Virus record (IMG/VR): IMGVR_UViG_3300042874_000190
Coordinates: 1-24,628 of that record
Source of the DNA: a virus
Direction: 5' to 3' (one strand)
Length of the DNA stretch: 24,628 nt
The notes beneath the pieces are model-generated. The model was not told where the DNA came from. It ran no database searches and saw only the letters and a list, made by a program, of their open reading frames with translations. Positions within the stretch are counted from its first letter, which is position 1. Every line of letters begins with the position of its first letter. Position numbers and translations under genes: made by a program. Shown here piece by piece: positions 1,126-13,701 of the stretch.

Positions 1126-1968
1126 ATGCCTAAAACATGCGACGTTCCCGTAGAGCTCAGAGATTTCAACAAAATCTTTGAGAGGATTTCATACAGGCAC
1201 GATTCGGGAACCGCGTTCGATGACTTCCTAACAATCATGATGAATTTTTTCAACATGAATTGTCAGCCCTTAGAGCTGAAGAGATACGAACGAAGAGACA
1301 TTGACGCATTTAACGAGCTACTTCATGAATTCTTACATGTAAGAAAAGTAGCATCTGAAACAAGAGATTGGAGTGATGAGCTCGGAACATTCTATGAAGT
1401 TTTGGCTGGAGGATGTAAGCGATCTTCATTCGGACAGTTCTTCACTCCTGTGCATTTATGCACGTTGTCTGCAAAGATGACTGCCAACAGTTCTTGTTCC
1501 GGAAACTTTGTAAACGATCCGGCTTGCGGGTCGGGTAGAATGCTCGTTGCGTTTCACATTCAAAGCAAAGGAAATTATCTTTTCGGAGAAGACCTTGATC
1601 CAATGTGCTGTAAAATGGCCGCACTCAATCTCATGTTTCACGGATGCGTTGGCGAGGTCATAAACATAAACTCTATATCAAGGGACTCTTACAGAGGAGG
1701 GTGGAGAATCAATCCGATACTGTACTCTTCTGGGATACCGTGCATTCAAACGATAACCGCAAATGAAAGCTTTTCATGGTGCGGATTTGTGTCACACCAA
1801 TTCAAAAGAAGGAACACCAGTGAACAAGGAAGAAGCGAAACAGGGAATACGGATAGATCGTCTGGCGATGGAAGCGGGATATACGCTTACAAAGGGCGGG
1901 CCGAACGAGATGAAATTACTGTGTCCAAATCCGGAGCACAACGACACCAATGCCTCATGCAATATTAA
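1126..1968 (+). CDS. N-6 adenine methylase-like protein lacking motif IV
   Basis: A 280-residue protein resembling the core of HsdM-type N6-adenine methyltransferases. GQFFTP lies at 103-108, the AdoMet-binding motif I DPACGSG at 131-137, and the acidic loop EDLDP at 155-159, followed by NLMFHG. The catalytic motif IV (N/D-P-P-Y/F) expected after this is not present; instead the chain reads GEVININSIS...GWRINP. It may bind AdoMet or DNA without methylating, or belong to a divergent clade. The start abuts the upstream stop. The last ~50 residues, after HQFKRR, are Ser/Gly/Arg-rich and overlap the start of the primase gene in another frame. They look like out-of-frame reading, so the original C-terminus may lie near residue 225 and its stop may have been lost by an indel. 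Confidence 0.6.
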   Translation: MPKTCDVPVELRDFNKIFERISYRHDSGTAFDDFLTIMMNFFNMNCQPLELKRYERRDIDAFNELLHEFLHVRKVASETRDWSDELGTFYEVLAGGCKRSSFGQFFTPVHLCTLSAKMTANSSCSGNFVNDPACGSGRMLVAFHIQSKGNYLFGEDLDPMCCKMAALNLMFHGCVGEVININSISRDSYRGGWRINPILYSSGIPCIQTITANESFSWCGFVSHQFKRRNTSEQGRSETGNTDRSSGDGSGIYAYKGRAERDEITVSKSGAQRHQCLMQY

Positions 1969-3670
1969 CACAGCAAAGAATCTTTTCCGGTGCTTAGGGT
2001 GCGGCAAGCAGGGTGATGTTTTCAGCTGGGTTATGATGATCGAGAAGTGCGATTTCAAAACCGCCTGCGTCAAGCTTGGCGTTGAGAACGATGAACAAAC
2101 CCACTGCGAACATTCATCAAAGCCGCGTCAACCCCGTCAACCAGACCGTCAACATAAACCCGCATACAAGCCGCCTCCGGCAAAAGATATTCCTGAAGCA
2201 AAGTCTAAGCCAAAGTACAGGCCGTCTCCCGAATATCTTACTAAGGCTCAAGCCTACAAGGATCATAAAGGAAAGGTTGTTTACAAATCGATACGATATG
2301 ATTATCCGGACGGAACAAAGGAGTTCCAGCTGTGCCATGTAAACGAACTTGGTGCGGACGTATTTACAATGAAGGGTGTCCAGAGAATCCCGTACAATTA
2401 CGACATCTTCACGAAAGTTAATACGATCTACTTTGTTGAGGGAGAGAAGTGCGCTGATGCAATGATGGAAATCCTTCGTATGCCAGCAACGACAACGGTT
2501 GGCGGATCGAAGGCTTGGCAAAAAGAGTACGCTGAATACTTCTCCGGAAAGCATCTGATATTGATACCTGATAATGACGATGCTGGACGAGCATACATGA
2601 AGCAGGTTGCTGATGACTGCATGGAGAACGCCGCTTCGATAAAAATTCTCGATCTGTTTTCAGACAAAAAATATGAAAAGAAGTGGGATATTGCGGACGA
2701 AATTCAGGAGAAGGATCATCCGGACTTCTATGCGAATGAAATTGCAGAGCAGGCTTTACTTGCGCCATCGTGGATTGGCGGAGTTCGAGTTGATGGAGCG
2801 ACAGCTGAACAGCTTACGGCAAAGCTGAGAAAGAGGTATCGCGATTGGCAGGGCGGAGGTCTCGACCTGAAGGAAATATTTCCTGCTTTTTCAAGCAGGG
2901 CATTGAGGCCGCTTGTTGGTGGAGACGTTCTTGTTTTGAACGCACAAACCGGAGCCGGTAAAACTGCGCTCGCACAGAACATAGCTGTTCACTATAACGA
3001 GGTTCCGATTCCTTGGTTTTCGATAGAGCTAGAGGAAACGAGGATGCACGAGAGAAATCTCATCCTTACAAATGAGATGACTGGAGACGAGGTTGAGTCT
3101 GCGATTCTTGCCGAACAGCATCTCGATACAAGCAGGTTTGACCATATCCACATCTACGATAATGCGATGTGTGATCTGGATTATATTGATAAACAGCTAA
3201 CCCTTATGCCACTGAAGACAGGAAGTAGCCCGAGGCTTGCGGTCGTCGATTACATCCAGCTGATGAGATCACCAAACGGGGCGAAGAATCTTTCTCCGTT
3301 CGAGAGAATATCTGAGAACGCTGTTGGAATAAAGATGCTTGCAAAAAAGCACAACATTGTTATCTGCTTAATCTCTCAGATCGGAAGAAAGGATGAGGCA
3401 AACCTTGGTGCGGCAAAGGGCTCCGGAGCAATTGAGGAATCCGCCACTGTTCTTATCGGTCTGAATTATGCGGACGGTATAGCTGACGCTCGAGAAGTCG
3501 GCGTGTTCAAAAACTCAAACGGAGACTCTGACTTCAGAGAAATAGTTTCCTACATTGGGAAGTACTTCAAGTTCATGGAGGCAAGGCCAATGCCCAGAAG
3601 CGTAACTCAACTACCAGCAAGGAATCCAGATGGATCAACAAACGAACGAAGTGAAGACCAGCCTTTCTGA
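1820..3670 (+). CDS. Bifunctional DNA primase-helicase (T7 gp4-like)
   Basis: Synthesises primers and unwinds DNA at the phage fork. With the GTG at 1820 it has 616 residues. The order is: zinc finger (C35, H40, C58, C61), TOPRIM domain (VEGEK with E208; IPDNDDAG with D251 and D253), and a RecA-fold DnaB-type helicase (Walker A AQTGAGKT 375-382; Walker B VVDYIQL 475-481; LISQIGR 517-523; GSGAIEESA near 535). The GTG is chosen because AGAAGGA lies 7 nt before it. An upstream ATG at 1763 would add 19 unconvincing residues and has no SD. The gene overlaps the methylase-like frame by 149 nt, which is unusual. A linker rich in Pro, Gln and Lys (about 100-135) joins the zinc finger to TOPRIM. Confidence 0.9.
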   Translation: MNKEEAKQGIRIDRLAMEAGYTLTKGGPNEMKLLCPNPEHNDTNASCNINTAKNLFRCLGCGKQGDVFSWVMMIEKCDFKTACVKLGVENDEQTHCEHSSKPRQPRQPDRQHKPAYKPPPAKDIPEAKSKPKYRPSPEYLTKAQAYKDHKGKVVYKSIRYDYPDGTKEFQLCHVNELGADVFTMKGVQRIPYNYDIFTKVNTIYFVEGEKCADAMMEILRMPATTTVGGSKAWQKEYAEYFSGKHLILIPDNDDAGRAYMKQVADDCMENAASIKILDLFSDKKYEKKWDIADEIQEKDHPDFYANEIAEQALLAPSWIGGVRVDGATAEQLTAKLRKRYRDWQGGGLDLKEIFPAFSSRALRPLVGGDVLVLNAQTGAGKTALAQNIAVHYNEVPIPWFSIELEETRMHERNLILTNEMTGDEVESAILAEQHLDTSRFDHIHIYDNAMCDLDYIDKQLTLMPLKTGSSPRLAVVDYIQLMRSPNGAKNLSPFERISENAVGIKMLAKKHNIVICLISQIGRKDEANLGAAKGSGAIEESATVLIGLNYADGIADAREVGVFKNSNGDSDFREIVSYIGKYFKFMEARPMPRSVTQLPARNPDGSTNERSEDQPF

Positions 3671-4745: not shown

Positions 4746-4817
4746 TGCGGGGTGGAGCAATGGTAGCTCGCTTGGCTCATAACCAAGAGGTTGCCGGTTC
4801 GAGTCCGGCCCCCGCAA
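4746..4817 (+). tRNA. tRNA-Met (CAT), initiator-like
   Basis: A complete 72-nt cloverleaf: acceptor TGCGGGG 4746-4752 with CCCCGCA 4810-4816 (7 pairs), D arm GAGC/GCTC, anticodon arm CTTGG/CCAAG with loop CTCATAA (anticodon CAT at 4778-4780), T arm GCCGG/CCGGC with TTCGAGT, and discriminator A 4817. CCA is not encoded. Much of the body matches bacterial tRNA-fMet (CGGGGTGGAGCA, GGTAGCTCG, CTCATAACC), including the A11:U24 pair of bacterial initiators. However, position 1 is T, forming a weak T1:A72 pair in place of the C1/A72 mismatch, and only two of the three anticodon-stem G:C pairs remain. It lies in the early operon between SSB and the nuclease. An Ile-CAT (lysidine) or elongator Met role is the alternative. 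Confidence 0.93.
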
Positions 4818-8579: not shown

Positions 8580-8603
8580 CCAGTTGTGACTGGAATTTTA
8601 TTG
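8580..8603 (+). terminator. Weak intrinsic terminator of the early operon
   Basis: CCAGT 8580-8584, loop TGTG and ACTGG 8589-8593 form a 5-bp hairpin followed by AATTTTATTG. It lies in the correct place, after the HNH gene, and slightly overlaps the end of the minus-strand lipoprotein gene. The stem is short and the T-run is interrupted, so efficiency is doubtful. Confidence 0.35.
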
Positions 8604-8906
8604 TGAAGGAAAATCATCCTGACTGATGTTTACGAGTTTCGCGTCGTAGTAAACAGTCGTTCCGGCTGGCAATAAAATTGGGCCGGTCTTTTTCTTTGTT
8701 GCGGCATCGACAAGATTTTCGACCCACATTCCGCGAGCATCAACCTGATAGACAGCTTCAGGGTTAAATATCGAACGGCTATTCTTTCTCGCCACCTGAT
8801 CCGTCTTTCCGTAGGCTTTCGAGACGCTGTTGCACCCGCTCAGAAGCGAGATCATGCACAGCGCGATTGTCACTCGCAACATCGACATGGTTTGTTTCTT
8901 CATCAT
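8598..8906 (-). CDS. Lipoprotein, candidate outer-membrane lysis factor (Rz1/o-spanin-like)
   Basis: A 102-residue protein with a lipoprotein signal peptide: basic N-terminus, hydrophobic core, and lipobox L22-S23-G24-C25. The mature ~78-residue chain starts CNSVSK and has no inner-membrane retention Asp at +2, so outer-membrane sorting is plausible. It starts inside, and in a different frame from, a gene for a one-TM protein (128-nt overlap), an arrangement typical of Rz/Rz1 spanin pairs. It is longer than most Rz1 proteins and lacks the usual Pro-rich stretch, so spanin is a guess. A superinfection-exclusion or other surface lipoprotein is the alternative. It is the last gene of the late operon. 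Confidence 0.7.
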   Translation of the reverse strand: MMKKQTMSMLRVTIALCMISLLSGCNSVSKAYGKTDQVARKNSRSIFNPEAVYQVDARGMWVENLVDAATKKKTGPILLPAGTTVYYDAKLVNISQDDFPSQ

Positions 8907-8985
8907 GAAGTTTCTTCCATTTATAGAAAATGGGGATCGCCGCCCCGATGACGGTAACGATCCCCACTGCGATTGAAACCCACAT
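8779..8985 (-). CDS. Small one-TM protein, candidate holin or spanin subunit
   Basis: A 68-residue protein with an N-terminal membrane helix (residues 2-21, Gly/Ala-rich, ending AAIPIFYKWKK) and a charged helical tail (ASERVQQRLESLRKDG). The Lys cluster after the helix suggests N-out, C-in topology, which argues against a classical inner-membrane spanin and leaves a holin-type role open. The overlap with the lipoprotein gene in another reading frame points towards a lysis cassette. No endolysin was seen nearby. The ATG follows the upstream stop by 2 nt. Confidence 0.6.
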   Translation of the reverse strand: MWVSIAVGIVTVIGAAIPIFYKWKKLHDEETNHVDVASDNRAVHDLASERVQQRLESLRKDGSGGEKE

Positions 8986-8987
8986 GA

Positions 8988-9356
8988 TTATTCCGTTACT
9001 GCCGGAGCAACTTCGGGAGCGGATTTGTCATCGAACATCGAGACGATTCCTTCAAGCGTTTTCATAACGCCATTGAAGATTCCCTCGACCTTTTCCTCGC
9101 TCACATCATCGGCCACATCGTAGCCTTCGACGAATCCTGCGCGGATGTCTTCGAGTTCGTCCTGCTGTACGCCATCGCTGAACACGGTCTTCAGTTCTGA
9201 GCGGCGGGTAATTGCCACAAACCCGAGCGTGCCGAATTCTTTGGCGATGTCGATTCCTTCGACGAGGCTGATCTTTTTGTCGGCCAGTGCGTTCTGGATT
9301 GCGGCGGCGGCTTCACCGGCTTCGCGACCAACGGTCTTCATTACTGAGTTTTCCAT
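8988..9356 (-). CDS. Hypothetical soluble late protein
   Basis: A 122-residue, acidic, probably helical protein without signal peptide or membrane segment (VGREAGEAAAAIQNALADK near the start, FNGVMKTLEGIVSMFDDK near the end, then an Ala/Pro/Glu tail). The start MENSVMK is chosen over an ATG 30 nt upstream because AAGGAG lies 8 nt before it. I do not recognise a family. It sits between the membrane-anchored proteins of the putative lysis region and ends 2 nt before the one-TM gene, so co-expression with lysis functions is likely. Confidence 0.7.
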   Translation of the reverse strand: MENSVMKTVGREAGEAAAAIQNALADKKISLVEGIDIAKEFGTLGFVAITRRSELKTVFSDGVQQDELEDIRAGFVEGYDVADDVSEEKVEGIFNGVMKTLEGIVSMFDDKSAPEVAPAVTE

Positions 9357-9434
9357 GATGCCATCTCCTTTGTTCTGATTACACATTCAATGAATGAAAG
9401 CTACTGCTTATTCCATTGGCGAGCAACAGAAAAA

Positions 9435-9791
9435 TTACCTAACAAAAATCATATAAACTATTCCGGTTATTGTTCCGGATGCAGTGAGTGCGACAAATAT
9501 AATCGACCAAGTTTTTGCCGCATTCCACTCAACGCGCTTGTTCGGGCAGTTCGCTATGTGATATTTGAAAAGGGTGTCGAAGTCGTGATCGTCTTTTGAT
9601 TTTTTATGATCCTCAAACTCCTCCATGCTCAACAGACCGAATCTTCGCTCAGCCGCCCACATCCTCATGACAGTCCCAAGAGCTTCATCGCGATCCCTGT
9701 TTGTGGCAGTTCCACTCTCAAGGATGTCGGCAAGGTTTTCTAGGCGTTTGATCGACACATTCTCTACTTCGGTTGGTTTTCCCATTTTCAC
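9435..9791 (-). CDS. C-terminally anchored membrane protein
   Basis: A 118-residue protein with a soluble, charged N-terminal domain (1-90; helical, EFEDHKKSKDDHDFD) and one C-terminal membrane helix (95-116, TWSIIFVALTASGTITGIVYM). Basic residues before the helix (NKRVEWNAAK) predict the bulk to be cytoplasmic. The layout resembles XhlA-like/hemolysin-type phage lysis proteins or small holin partners, but sequence support is weak. The GTG start at 9791 or the ATG at 9785 are both possible; neither has a strong SD. It lies 22 nt after the rhomboid gene and could be a partner or substrate of it. Confidence 0.65.
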   Translation of the reverse strand: MKMGKPTEVENVSIKRLENLADILESGTATNRDRDEALGTVMRMWAAERRFGLLSMEEFEDHKKSKDDHDFDTLFKYHIANCPNKRVEWNAAKTWSIIFVALTASGTITGIVYMIFVR

Positions 9792-9813: not shown

Positions 9814-10431
9814 TCAACTGCACTCAACGAAATTATCGTTACAGTTGAGCTCTTTAAAATCAACACTGAATAATTTCTTTGCAAAGATAATTACAGATGC
9901 CGACAGAGCGAAAGATGCCGAGTGAATCTGCCAAGCGTGGTTAGTAAAAACAAAAATAGAAATCAGGCTGTCAAGAGATACAAGAATCGGGAATGCAACG
10001 AAGGCAGGAAACCTGCCGATCCCAGCAAAACACCAGATAGATTTCGGGTTTGAAGCGGCCCACCATCCGCAAAGAGCAAACAGAACCCCACTGCTACCAA
10101 CCAGTGTAGAATGAATCGGCATCGCATAATACGCGAACAATATCGTCGAAATCATAGCTGATAAAAATGAAACTAAAATCGGAACAAAAAGTTTTCTGAT
10201 TTTAATCCCGCGCATTATGCAAAAGAAACCGATTGCGTTTAATATCGCATGAGAACAGCTACCGTGAACAGTCATTGATGTTGCAGAGTGCAAGACTTTC
10301 ATTGCCAACGAATCTCCGGAAGATAGACGCATTGCTCCAAGGAGTCCACTCGTGTTTGACTGAATCGCGAACAGAGAAATGACGGTCAGGAAAAGAAAAA
10401 TTCCTGAGTCAAAATCTAAAAACTTTTTCAT
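9814..10431 (-). CDS. Rhomboid-family intramembrane serine protease
   Basis: A 205-residue polytopic membrane protein with about six predicted membrane helices. The rhomboid signature is complete: H61-x3-N65 (SHAILNAIGFF, as HxxxN in GlpG), the serine motif G112-S-S114-G115 (VGSSGVLFALCGW) and a His in a later helix (H170, AWQIHSASFAL). Ser114 and His170 would form the catalytic dyad within the membrane. The start is placed at ATG 10431, which overlaps the preceding stop as TAATG; a longer reading would be out-of-frame copy of that gene. It follows two Sec-signal proteins in the late operon. Rhomboids cleave single-pass or signal-anchored proteins, so its substrate may be a neighbour or a host surface protein. 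Confidence 0.82.
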   Translation of the reverse strand: MKKFLDFDSGIFLFLTVISLFAIQSNTSGLLGAMRLSSGDSLAMKVLHSATSMTVHGSCSHAILNAIGFFCIMRGIKIRKLFVPILVSFLSAMISTILFAYYAMPIHSTLVGSSGVLFALCGWWAASNPKSIWCFAGIGRFPAFVAFPILVSLDSLISIFVFTNHAWQIHSASFALSASVIIFAKKLFSVDFKELNCNDNFVECS

Positions 10432-11075
10432 TAACGGCTGGCCTTGTTTACTGTTCCGCCAAACCCCTCTATGCTTGCCTTCAAGTCGAAGTACTGAACG
10501 AGAAGTTGCGTTCCGTTTGTATCTAATGCGTGAGCACGTAGCCACATCATTATCATTGAGTCAGTTCCAGTTGGAAGGGTTTTTGCTTCAACGCCAACAA
10601 GACCGTTTTCTTCAAGCCACGAGAACAACTCAAGTTCGGTTGCCTTCAACTCTGGGCTTTTCAGATCGTTAATAAATTTTTCCTTCGTTCTGAAATCTGA
10701 AATCTCAGAAATGTTTGTATGAATTATAGTTCTCTCATACACATTGGTTTCAACACGAGTAACCTCGAACGGATTTCCGTCATCACCGACAGAAAGATTT
10801 CCGTTCTCATCAAGAACGTTTTCAATAACATCGTAAACATTGGTTTCAAAAACAGTATGAGACAGGTTTGTGCCGTACCCAACATCGATAACGTTCCAGT
10901 TCGGATTATCAATTATCGTTTTTCCACCGATATAACTGTCGTTCCATTTTATAAACTCGGAATCTTTCCGAATGATAGAGCCGTCGATTTTGTTGTAGAT
11001 AATCGCATCTCCAAAAATGCACAGAGAGCAGACTGCAAGAACGAATACAGATAGAATAATAATTTTGTTTTTCAT
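10431..11075 (-). CDS. Exported protein with Sec signal peptide
   Basis: A 214-residue protein. MKNKIIILSVFVLAVCSLC followed by IFG and Asp is a clear Sec signal peptide, closely similar to that of the gene upstream. The mature part has Asn/Thr-rich segments (VFETNVYDVIENV and VETNVYERTIIHTN) that repeat a TNVY motif, then a helical C-terminus (ELKATELELFSWLEENGL). No enzymatic motif is seen. The Cys at -6 to -3 does not make a good lipobox. AAGGGAG lies at the right distance. It sits between a fibre-like exported protein and the rhomboid gene, and may be a fibre partner, a surface protein or a rhomboid substrate. Confidence 0.7.
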   Translation of the reverse strand: MKNKIIILSVFVLAVCSLCIFGDAIIYNKIDGSIIRKDSEFIKWNDSYIGGKTIIDNPNWNVIDVGYGTNLSHTVFETNVYDVIENVLDENGNLSVGDDGNPFEVTRVETNVYERTIIHTNISEISDFRTKEKFINDLKSPELKATELELFSWLEENGLVGVEAKTLPTGTDSMIMMWLRAHALDTNGTQLLVQYFDLKASIEGFGGTVNKASR

Positions 11076-11090
11076 AACACTCCCTTTACT

Positions 11091-12179
11091 TTATTGAAAC
11101 AGTTCCCATCCTGTGGCAAGACTCCTGCATACGTACATATTACCGGAATCAGAAACATAAAACCCACCGACAACCAAAGAAGGAACAGTGCTTTGAGGAA
11201 TCATAACAAACATCGGCATCTGAACTTTTACAGAATCTATCCTTACAGTTAAATTTGACGATCCTTGCGGCCTGAAGTCGATGCGTGCAGTTCCTCCATC
11301 ATTCCAAAGCCTGAAGATTCTGAGAGTTTCATTTGCGACAACCTCTTCCGGAGTCGAATTTGTGTCACCATATGAATAAAGGCGAATGAAACTCTGATCC
11401 TCCTGCGGCTGTTTGATTGACATGATCGGAGCCTTGGCCTCAATCAGCTTTCCTCTGGCTGTTTCGGCAACAGCCCTGAAGAACGCAGAGCCAATTCCGG
11501 AAACATCAACGGTTGCCGTATAGATGTTGTCAACAGGGCCGGTAACTTCGGCATAAGCATTCGTCCACACTCCCTCAACTAAATTTGTCGTCATCTCGAT
11601 GAACGGAGTTGTTACTACGTTCTGACCATCAATCGTGATTGTTGCTGTGTTGTCCGAAACAACCAAAGAAAGAATCCTGAATGCCAGTCTTCCGTTTGAA
11701 AACTGCATCAGAGGAACTCCTCCGACCCCAATAGAGCCGTCCTGAAGCATATTCACTCCAAGGAATTCTCCGGTTCCGATAAACTCCATATCACCAACTC
11801 GTAGCGATCCGTTTACGTTAAGAGAACCTACAGTCCCCCCGCTTCTAGGTAGCTTCATTGCCGACTGGTAGAACAGCTCATCAAGTGCTTCTCCGGTGAA
11901 GTTCGTAATCGTACCGATCTGTACTGGATCGGAGGACGGGTCTGGAACATCTCCTGATTCATAAACCGGCTGTGTGTAATACGGTATCTGTACTGCCGTT
12001 ACACCGTGCGGGTTGTTTGTTTGGCCCTCATGAGTATCAATGTTTGCCTGAACTTGAGCAACGTCTTGGGTCTCAGGAACAGTGTCGGTCATCTTGAATG
12101 ATCCAAATATCTTCTCGCCAAAACACATAGCCGAAACAAAAAGTGATGCGGCGAAAAGTATCAGAATTTTATTTCTCAC
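11091..12179 (-). CDS. Fibre-like protein with Sec signal peptide
   Basis: A 362-residue protein beginning MRNKILILFAASLFVSAMC, a Sec signal peptide with likely cleavage after CFG. After it comes a phage-fibre segment (NNPHGVTAVQIPYYTQ, about 56-71), then beta-rich sequence with Gly/Val repeats (GGTVGSLNVNGSLRVGDMEF) and an Ig-like part (GSAFFRAVAE). A signal peptide on a tail-fibre-type protein is unusual, since virion fibres assemble in the cytoplasm. The GTG start overlaps the upstream stop (GTGA), with AAGGGAG before it. It could be an exported decoy, a host-surface modifier, or a fibre that acquired a host-type leader. Confidence 0.72.
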   Translation of the reverse strand: MRNKILILFAASLFVSAMCFGEKIFGSFKMTDTVPETQDVAQVQANIDTHEGQTNNPHGVTAVQIPYYTQPVYESGDVPDPSSDPVQIGTITNFTGEALDELFYQSAMKLPRSGGTVGSLNVNGSLRVGDMEFIGTGEFLGVNMLQDGSIGVGGVPLMQFSNGRLAFRILSLVVSDNTATITIDGQNVVTTPFIEMTTNLVEGVWTNAYAEVTGPVDNIYTATVDVSGIGSAFFRAVAETARGKLIEAKAPIMSIKQPQEDQSFIRLYSYGDTNSTPEEVVANETLRIFRLWNDGGTARIDFRPQGSSNLTVRIDSVKVQMPMFVMIPQSTVPSLVVGGFYVSDSGNMYVCRSLATGWELFQ

Positions 12180-12838
12180 TGGAAGTCTCCCTTTGATTTC
12201 ATATCGCTAATCAGCGTTGCCAGAACAGACGTAACCTTGCTCATCTGCTCTGCAAGAGTCAAGTCCGCCATGTCTGTAAAATCAATTTCACGCAGAGTCT
12301 CTGCACCTGAAACAGCATATACCTCTTCGCTCTTATCACACTTCAGGTCAAGAGCTTCCTGCTGTGGCGTGCTGACCGGCTTGTTTTCATCAGCCGTGTT
12401 GTCAACAAACCCGAGGCCGACCTGCGCGGCTGTGACGGCGTGAGGGTTATCTGTGTCTTCGGTGTGCTCCGAAAGCACAGAGACGGTGACAGCCGCCAGC
12501 TCCCAGTTTGTTCCGTCATCGAGAACTGGATCGTTTCCTGAATTGTCATCGGCCTTGGATCGATACAGCTCACCGTCGCTTCCTGTTGTGACGGCAAATT
12601 GTTTGTAGGAAATATTCGTATCCCAAGGAAGTGCTCCGCCGTACTGGTTTATGTCAACGCACAGGGCAAACAGTTTAGCGAACAGGTCGTTAAAAATCTT
12701 TCGACGCGGTTTCTTTCCCGATCCGGCTGTTGAGTAATCGGAGTCCCAACCTGCCTCGAAGTCAACAAACTCCTCGCGCTCTGACGGGTCTGCCGATCCT
12801 GCAAAAATCTTACTGAATAATCCAAGCGGGTTTCTCAT
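12176..12838 (-). CDS. Tail fibre protein, short paralogue
   Basis: A 220-residue fibre protein. Residues 1-113 are homologous to the N-terminus of the next upstream fibre gene (INQYGGALPW versus MNKFGAALPY; SYKQFAVTTGSDGELY versus SYGQYAVVTGSNGVVY). This shared part is probably the baseplate-attachment domain. It continues with the phage-fibre repeat DNPHAVTAAQVGLGFVDN, then a short helical C-terminus. No receptor-binding tip is obvious, so it may be a connector onto which other fibre proteins assemble. AAGGAG precedes the ATG. Confidence 0.75.
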   Translation of the reverse strand: MRNPLGLFSKIFAGSADPSEREEFVDFEAGWDSDYSTAGSGKKPRRKIFNDLFAKLFALCVDINQYGGALPWDTNISYKQFAVTTGSDGELYRSKADDNSGNDPVLDDGTNWELAAVTVSVLSEHTEDTDNPHAVTAAQVGLGFVDNTADENKPVSTPQQEALDLKCDKSEEVYAVSGAETLREIDFTDMADLTLAEQMSKVTSVLATLISDMKSKGDFQ

Positions 12839-12846
12839 GGCTCTCC

Positions 12847-13701
12847 TTACGGCTTAATAAAAAACGAATTCTGTTTCACAAGATCGCCGACAAAGTCGAA
12901 GTCCCAGTCTCCTCCACCTCTGTTGTTTTTAACAATCTGAACGAGATGGTTTCCTGCCGCTATTGAAAAAGATATATTTTTAGGAGATGTCTGGTTGTTG
13001 AAATTCTGGCTGTTTGCAACCAGTGCACCATCGACGTAAACGAACATGTAATCATCAACAGAAAACAGCTTGAACGAATATGATGTTGTTGAAAGAACGC
13101 GAAGGTTCATGCTGAACAAAACAGATTTCGCATATGCGTACACGTTATTGTGACCTGTTGTGATCTGGCCCATGCTCATAAGCGAAAACTCAGAATTAAA
13201 CCCAGCCGAAAACTCTGAAGGAAGAGTCAGGTTATTCGTCGGATGAGTCCGTACCGTATAGAATGGGTAAATCCTGTCCTCAACATAATCAAGAACGCCC
13301 TTTGGAGTAACCGCAACCGTGTCATTTGAATTCACGAACCCCTGAAGCGTCGTGAGAAATGCCTTCCAGTACAGGGGTCGATTTCCTGCAACGATTGGAT
13401 CGTGATTAAGATTGTCATCCTGCTGTGATACATAGACAACACCGTTCGATCCGGTTACGACAGCGTACTGACCGTATGAAAGCTCTTCGTCATACGGAAG
13501 CGCGGCACCGAACTTGTTCATGTCGTTACAGGCGGCAGTGACCTTGCAGAGAACGTCGTTGAGATGTCTCCTGTCTGGAAAAAGAGAAGACGTGTATTCG
13601 TCTGAGTACCCGTGGTCGAAATCTGGATTCGGAGTTCTGTCAGACAAAGATGACAGCCCAGCCCAAACTTTTTGAAACACACCTTTTTTATCGCGAGCCA
13701 T
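12847..13701 (-). CDS. Tail fibre / receptor-binding protein with PA14-like tip
   Basis: A 284-residue protein that shares its first ~113 residues with the adjacent shorter fibre gene, and then carries a different C-terminal domain (about 150-275). That domain has beta-strand patterns of a PA14/carbohydrate-binding fold: SYSFKLFSVDDYMFVYVDGALV, followed by ISFSIAAGNHLVQIVKNN. DD and DG turns of this kind bind sugars in PA14 domains. It is the best candidate for the host receptor-binding protein of the tail. AGGAG lies before the ATG, 9 nt after the baseplate gene. The domain name is a pattern judgement. Confidence 0.7.
   Translation of the reverse strand: MARDKKGVFQKVWAGLSSLSDRTPNPDFDHGYSDEYTSSLFPDRRHLNDVLCKVTAACNDMNKFGAALPYDEELSYGQYAVVTGSNGVVYVSQQDDNLNHDPIVAGNRPLYWKAFLTTLQGFVNSNDTVAVTPKGVLDYVEDRIYPFYTVRTHPTNNLTLPSEFSAGFNSEFSLMSMGQITTGHNNVYAYAKSVLFSMNLRVLSTTSYSFKLFSVDDYMFVYVDGALVANSQNFNNQTSPKNISFSIAAGNHLVQIVKNNRGGGDWDFDFVGDLVKQNSFFIKP

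Follow-up and report, generated by a model that had tools for sequence, protein, structure and literature searches.

Two adjacent genes in the late region of an uncultured contractile-tailed phage, sp1 and sp2, encode putatively exported proteins whose Sec signals look real, and they are followed by a gene for a rhomboid intramembrane protease whose predicted active site is complete. Our leading, still tentative, interpretation is that the three genes form a late envelope cassette, in which exported fibre-like proteins would mask receptors, with the rhomboid as an accessory acting in the envelope. Sec-signal fibres recur in other phages, a pattern that is apparently undescribed in the open-access literature. 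It is conceivable, although we would not yet lean on it, that tailed phages of several lineages route tail-fibre proteins via Sec to the host envelope, in some cases along with an OmpH/Skp-type chaperone or membrane protease of their own; the purpose would be receptor masking or the completion of virions outside the cytoplasm. In the textbook view, tail fibres are made in the cytoplasm and pass directly onto virions. If true, fibre export in five unrelated lineages would point to fibre-based superinfection exclusion or to an extra-cytoplasmic step of virion maturation; one of these lineages infects a Bradyrhizobium strain that is in culture, which makes a direct test feasible. The rhomboid would be unusual as a phage-encoded intramembrane protease within a late operon, and its coupling to exported proteins is a single case, from one genome only.

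The window, meaning the whole stretch of DNA analysed, comprises 24.6 kb from a virus record. Its plus strand carries the replication genes, among them a replication initiator and a primase/helicase. The tail genes lie on the minus strand and encode the terminator, sheath, tube, tape measure, hub, baseplate J (PF04865) and a DUF2612 protein. After DUF2612 the minus-strand order is fibA, fibB, sp1, sp2, rhomboid and a lysis-type module, the trio of sp1, sp2 and rhomboid being flanked by two adaptor-bearing fibre genes and by this module, which comprises small membrane proteins with a probable spanin lipoprotein last. The features of this region are as follows.

12847-13701, minus strand: fibA, adaptor-bearing tail fibre of 284 aa, coming after the DUF2612 tail gene; weak PA14-like tip (PA14 E 0.11 only)
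12176-12838, minus strand: fibB, adaptor-bearing tail fibre of 220 aa with an NPHAVTAAQ motif and without a signal peptide; 31 PHROG matches, several of them to tail fibre families
11091-12179, minus strand: sp1, predicted Sec-signal fibre-like protein of 362 aa without the adaptor domain, GTG start; assigned from its signal, fibre modules and PHROG matches
10431-11075, minus strand: sp2, second predicted Sec-signal protein, 214 aa, ATG start, no known family; signal at residues 1-22
9814-10431, minus strand: rho, rhomboid intramembrane serine protease of 205 aa with an S114/H170 dyad; PF01694 and GlpG alignment
9435-9791, minus strand: tail-anchored small membrane protein of 118 aa with a C-terminal helix, possibly holin-like or lysis-associated; hydropathy, no family match
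8988-9386, minus strand: 132-aa protein of the lysis-proximal module; no convincing family match
8779-8985, minus strand: 68-aa protein that has a helix at its N-terminus and may be an inner-membrane spanin or a holin; hydropathy, weak PHROG holin-type matches
8598-8906, minus strand: lipoprotein with an LLSGC lipobox, probably an outer-membrane spanin, its gene start lying within that of the 68-aa protein; matches to PHROG Rz-like spanin (E 0.0084) and, below cut-off, to NCBIfam spanin2 (E 0.0039)

The N-terminus of sp1 reads MRNKILILFAASLFVSAMCFG followed by E, and that of sp2 MKNKIIILSVFVLAVCSLCIFG followed by D. As the initial annotation had proposed, the signals of these adjacent minus-strand genes nearly match each other, with 48% identity over 25 residues. 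Both have a positive n-region, an uninterrupted core and possible cleavage sites. Judged by a simple hydropathy score, not by SignalP, the sp1/sp2 pair reaches 2.89 and 3.50, values attained by 5/5000 and 2/5000 shuffles (each protein shuffled whole), and none of 14 other window genes tested (12 virion genes plus the neighbouring fibA and fibB) gave a signal score. The c-regions, CFG/CIFG, are atypical, as they might be if the hydrophobic N-termini were membrane anchors or chance and not export signals. We regard this reading as very improbable, given the rarity of such scores among shuffles, the n-region, core and possible cleavage sites found in nine genes of five phage lineages, and the OmpH/Skp partner gene in two of the contigs described below. 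By inspection, the cysteine contexts SAMC, LAVC and CSLC in the pair do not fit a lipobox, Met, Val or Leu preceding the Cys; neither sp1 nor sp2 is a standard lipoprotein. Hydropathy revealed no C-terminal membrane helix in either protein.

The sp1 protein is fibre-like. It contains the motif NPHGVTAVQ at residues 56-64, which had been picked out from the beginning, together with SGGTVGSLNVNGSL and SGGTV, and it has weak matches to PHROG tail-fibre profiles, the best being PHROG 8147 at E 1.1e-4. The N-terminal virion-adaptor domain, which fibA and fibB have in common with 41% identity over their first 105 aa, is missing from sp1, and a motif of 16-19 aa is all that fibB shares with it. An AlphaFold model of sp1 built without relatives was unusable (pLDDT 39). 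For sp2, no match to known families was found in Pfam, NCBIfam and PHROG profile searches or among phage records. We also considered whether either protein might be an exported endolysin, and discarded the idea, since neither has a hydrolase match; no endolysin was recognised anywhere in the window. At window 8598-8985, the lipoprotein gene beginning within the 68-aa membrane protein gene makes up a probable nested spanin pair.

Ribosome sites precede both genes (GGGAG for sp1, AAGGGAG for sp2), and the start of sp1 overlaps the preceding fibB by 4 bp in the sequence GTGA. Such good ribosome sites and overlapping or close starts indicate that sp1 and sp2 belong to the fibre operon. This bears on a reading of the trio as a lysogenic-conversion (moron) cassette in the style of lambda lom/bor, in which exported proteins resembling adhesins, together with a membrane protease, would alter the host surface to the benefit of the host. 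Lambda lom lies between fibre and lysis genes, and so does the present cassette; lambda lom/bor morons likewise encode exported proteins. The GC contents of sp2 and rho (0.40 and 0.41) are the lowest among the late genes tested (others 0.44-0.53), an envelope-modifying acyltransferase adjoins the exported fibres of a Bradyrhizobium prophage, and the rhomboid of Stenotrophomonas phage DLP5 was named a moron by its authors. However, morons of the lom/bor type are not fibre-like and are separately expressed. The overlapping starts within the fibre operon, together with promoter-like sites that are no commoner in the region than in shuffles, argue against separate expression, and the codon usage of the cassette fits phage virion genes. 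We rate a moron cassette as rather unlikely.

The rhomboid gene starts from the ATG at 10431, giving 205 aa, and a longer 243-aa ORF from a GTG is unnecessary. Its start overlaps the end of sp2 in the sequence TAATG, in keeping with the earlier description of a rhomboid that follows without a gap. It matches Pfam PF01694 at 25 bits (cut-off 22.6, E 2.4e-5), and H56, H61xxxN65, G112-S-S114-G and H170 align with E. coli GlpG column by column, which bears out the HxxxN, GSSG and late-helix His assigned to it initially, and likewise Ser114 as its serine. The Ser-His dyad and the oxyanion His/Asn (S114, H170, H61 and N65) are thus in GlpG register, and H56, H61, N65, G112, S114 and H170 are invariant across this protein, E. 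coli GlpG and the DLP5 phage rhomboid. Hydropathy fits a six-helix fold; an AlphaFold single-sequence model was unusable (pLDDT 41). Compared with GlpG-type rhomboids (MEROPS S54), the window protein has in common the catalytic and oxyanion motifs, the canonical aromatic F118 and, as predicted by hydropathy, about six helices, but it is only 22% identical to GlpG, has SxxxS in place of the TM6 GxxxG and is encoded in a phage late operon.

Among NCBIfam models the best match is rhombosortase (TIGR03902), which belongs to the same rhomboid fold family, at 24.2 bits against a cut-off of 84. The residue four after the catalytic serine is Tyr or Phe in ordinary rhomboids and His in rhombosortases (PMC3237569); here it is Phe118. 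Rhombosortase substrates carry a GlyGly-CTERM signal, a tripartite C-terminal arrangement of Gly motif, helix and basic tail (PMC3237569), which is absent in sp1 and sp2. We thus rejected a rhombosortase. In V. cholerae, both an ordinary GlpG and a rhombosortase can process an exported protein and alter its final location (PMC11389362), so a processing role for the window rhomboid is conceivable. That it processes sp1 or sp2 is hypothetical: neither protein has the C-terminal membrane helix of typical rhomboid substrates, and a Sec signal can be cleaved without a rhomboid.

Searches for direct relatives of the trio returned little. None of sp1, sp2 or the rhomboid had a confirmed relative in viral contigs, the rhomboid had none in genome contigs, and neither the rhomboid nor sp2 had any in phage records; the sp1 search gave a single marginal match (E 0.3). 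An alignment scan with fibA and fibB found nothing, and a scan for an MKK...NPHGVT pattern at one narrow spacing gave three out-of-frame matches only. A PDB search returned no match. A defence system was considered, but a weak DrmE match covering helices was all that pointed to one. With no relatives through which conservation could support these three proteins, we inspected the same position in other phages with a shared baseplate, at 37 loci where baseplate J is followed by 5 kb or more of sequence.

This survey of exported fibres is small and was assembled by looking, so its counts give no frequency estimate. L159, a 54-kb phage contig with terminase-, portal- and capsid-like genes (by inspection), has at L159:2708-7360 an adaptor fibre followed directly by tandem Sec-signal genes of 805 aa and 461 aa. 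The 805-aa gene encodes collagen repeats and has PHROG tail-fibre matches down to 1e-16, and the two signals end ICFSG and VCFG, resembling the CFG/CIFG of sp1 and sp2. In two contigs related to each other (L142:9021-12916 and L130:7615-12755), an OmpH/Skp-family lipoprotein gene (PF03938; E 2.4e-13 and 3.5e-11, both over cut-off) overlaps a Sec-signal fibre/spike gene of 1067 or 1512 aa. This arrangement suggests that the lipoprotein is a dedicated periplasmic chaperone for the exported fibre. An OmpH/Skp-type chaperone fits an exported client only, which argues that the client in these phages enters the periplasm.

Similarity searches from the fibres of these three contigs reached two further viruses. 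Bradyrhizobium phage ppBdUSDA122-1 (OP596612.1, L185:3926-8007), a cultured prophage, has tandem Sec-signal fibre genes (WAX24264 and WAX24263), which adjoin the acyltransferase mentioned above and precede an amidase. One of the two is annotated 'tail fiber protein'; it matches 110 other phage records, many called tail fibres, mostly via its C-terminal part, and its N-terminal domain has weak similarity to that of ordinary fibres. Virus Rctr41k (L190:4496-6475) has a spike-like lipoprotein with the signal IFSAC after a tail-fibre-type gene. In total there are nine Sec-signal genes from five phage lineages. Homologous fibres of other phages have no signal, and none was seen in any of 12 fibre-type proteins taken for comparison from nine further phage records. 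The four lineages beyond the window resemble it in placing a Sec-signal fibre or spike beside adaptor or ordinary fibres and differ in having no rhomboid, their partners being a second exported protein, the OmpH/Skp lipoprotein or the acyltransferase. Two other phages encode, directly after the adaptor fibre, lipoproteins that are related to each other and about 210-250 aa long (L120:10333-11109 and L125:13868-14680).

The initial annotation had suggested, as one option, that exported proteins and rhomboid might work as one device. Its export part is strengthened, because the pattern recurs, in a matching genomic position, in four or more further lineages that are unrelated; a single conserved three-gene system did not emerge. 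A conserved link between signal-peptide fibres and rhomboids, whose absence had been named there as refuting the idea, was not seen: the window is the only one of 83 phage records scanned (50 + 34, one common to both) with a rhomboid, and these 83 include all the other exported-fibre phages. Phage rhomboids are rare but not unheard of, as Stenotrophomonas phages DLP5, DLP3 and Summit and the huge phage LR756502 carry them in other settings. Those of DLP5, DLP3 and Summit are likewise rhomboid genes of tailed phages, but they lie amid metabolic and moron genes, away from fibres, with family-level similarity at most. GlpG matches in two faecal phage records, MT835518.1 and MT835706.1, were discarded, since their surroundings resemble a bacterial chromosome. 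Open-access papers yielded nothing on the export of tail fibres, nor on late phage operons that include a rhomboid.

The rhomboid might accordingly be functionally apart from sp1 and sp2, acting on the 68-aa or 118-aa membrane proteins to time lysis or in membrane-protein quality control. Small single-helix membrane proteins are indeed encoded directly downstream, and the exported fibres of other phages manage without a rhomboid neighbour. The TAATG overlap, however, couples rhomboid translation to sp2, and we know of no phage lysis system that uses a rhomboid; a separate rhomboid seems to us improbable.

Alternatively, sp1 and its counterparts may be exported distal fibres of the virion. They would fold in the periplasm, helped by envelope chaperones, and become attached to adaptor fibres, fibB for instance, once the inner membrane opens at lysis. 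Several features would suit this scheme. FibB consists of an adaptor and a short stub, without a large tip; an adaptor fibre directly precedes the exported genes in the window and in L159, and lies closely upstream of them in L142 and L130; the Bradyrhizobium fibre retains the N-terminal domain of ordinary tail fibres along with a fibre-type C-terminal end; and OmpH/Skp is suitable for periplasmic trimer folding. Most fibres, on the other hand, are without a signal, and to our knowledge there is no precedent among tailed phages for fibres exported and then joined at lysis; the paper describing phage ppBdUSDA122-1 turned out to contain no virion proteomics. We consider distal fibres of this kind unlikely.

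We instead favour, with the caution stated at the outset, the late envelope cassette. In this model, sp1 would be a tail-fibre relative that lost its virion-adaptor domain and gained a Sec signal, and sp2 a second exported protein. The two would be made alongside the fibres, cross the inner membrane and work in the envelope, unlike ordinary fibres assembled in the cytoplasm. From the putative signals, fibre modules, rhomboid active site, translational overlaps and recurrence of exported fibres in other phages, all of them read from sequence, we infer this envelope location and, as the likeliest job, occupation or masking of the receptor that the phage itself uses, both on the infected cell and on the debris that lysis leaves behind. 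The benefit would be superinfection exclusion or progeny protection, with no reinfection of the dying cell and no adsorption of progeny to debris. Late export of fibre-like proteins, some without a virion-binding domain, fits receptor masking, which would need receptor-binding tips to be retained in the exported fibre. The rhomboid would sit in the same membrane and most likely trim a membrane-tethered protein; candidate substrates would be either an exported partner whose processing is incomplete or a protein of the host surface. T5 Llp illustrates that an exported phage protein can block a receptor from the periplasm in superinfection exclusion (PMC9586334). It thus acts on the envelope for the same purpose as proposed for sp1; but Llp is a small lipoprotein whose kind is made early in infection (PMC9586334), whereas sp1 is fibre-like, late and without a lipobox. 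Against the envelope cassette, it gives no account of outer-membrane crossing, and the rhomboid is without a link to exported fibres in other phages.

The sheath of the phage resembles those of named phages at 25-29%. The nearest contig by tail sheath (L007, 60% identical) also has terminase- and portal-like genes (by inspection) and stops short of the fibre region. Genome contigs searched for a sheath of this type contained none, and a baseplate-J scan gave distant phages only. An N6 DNA methylase ORF (PF02384) at 1126-1968 overlaps at its 3' end, by about 200 bases, the primase-helicase ORF at 1763-3670 and may be truncated or frameshifted. A tRNA-Met gene lies at window 4746-4817, amid the early genes.
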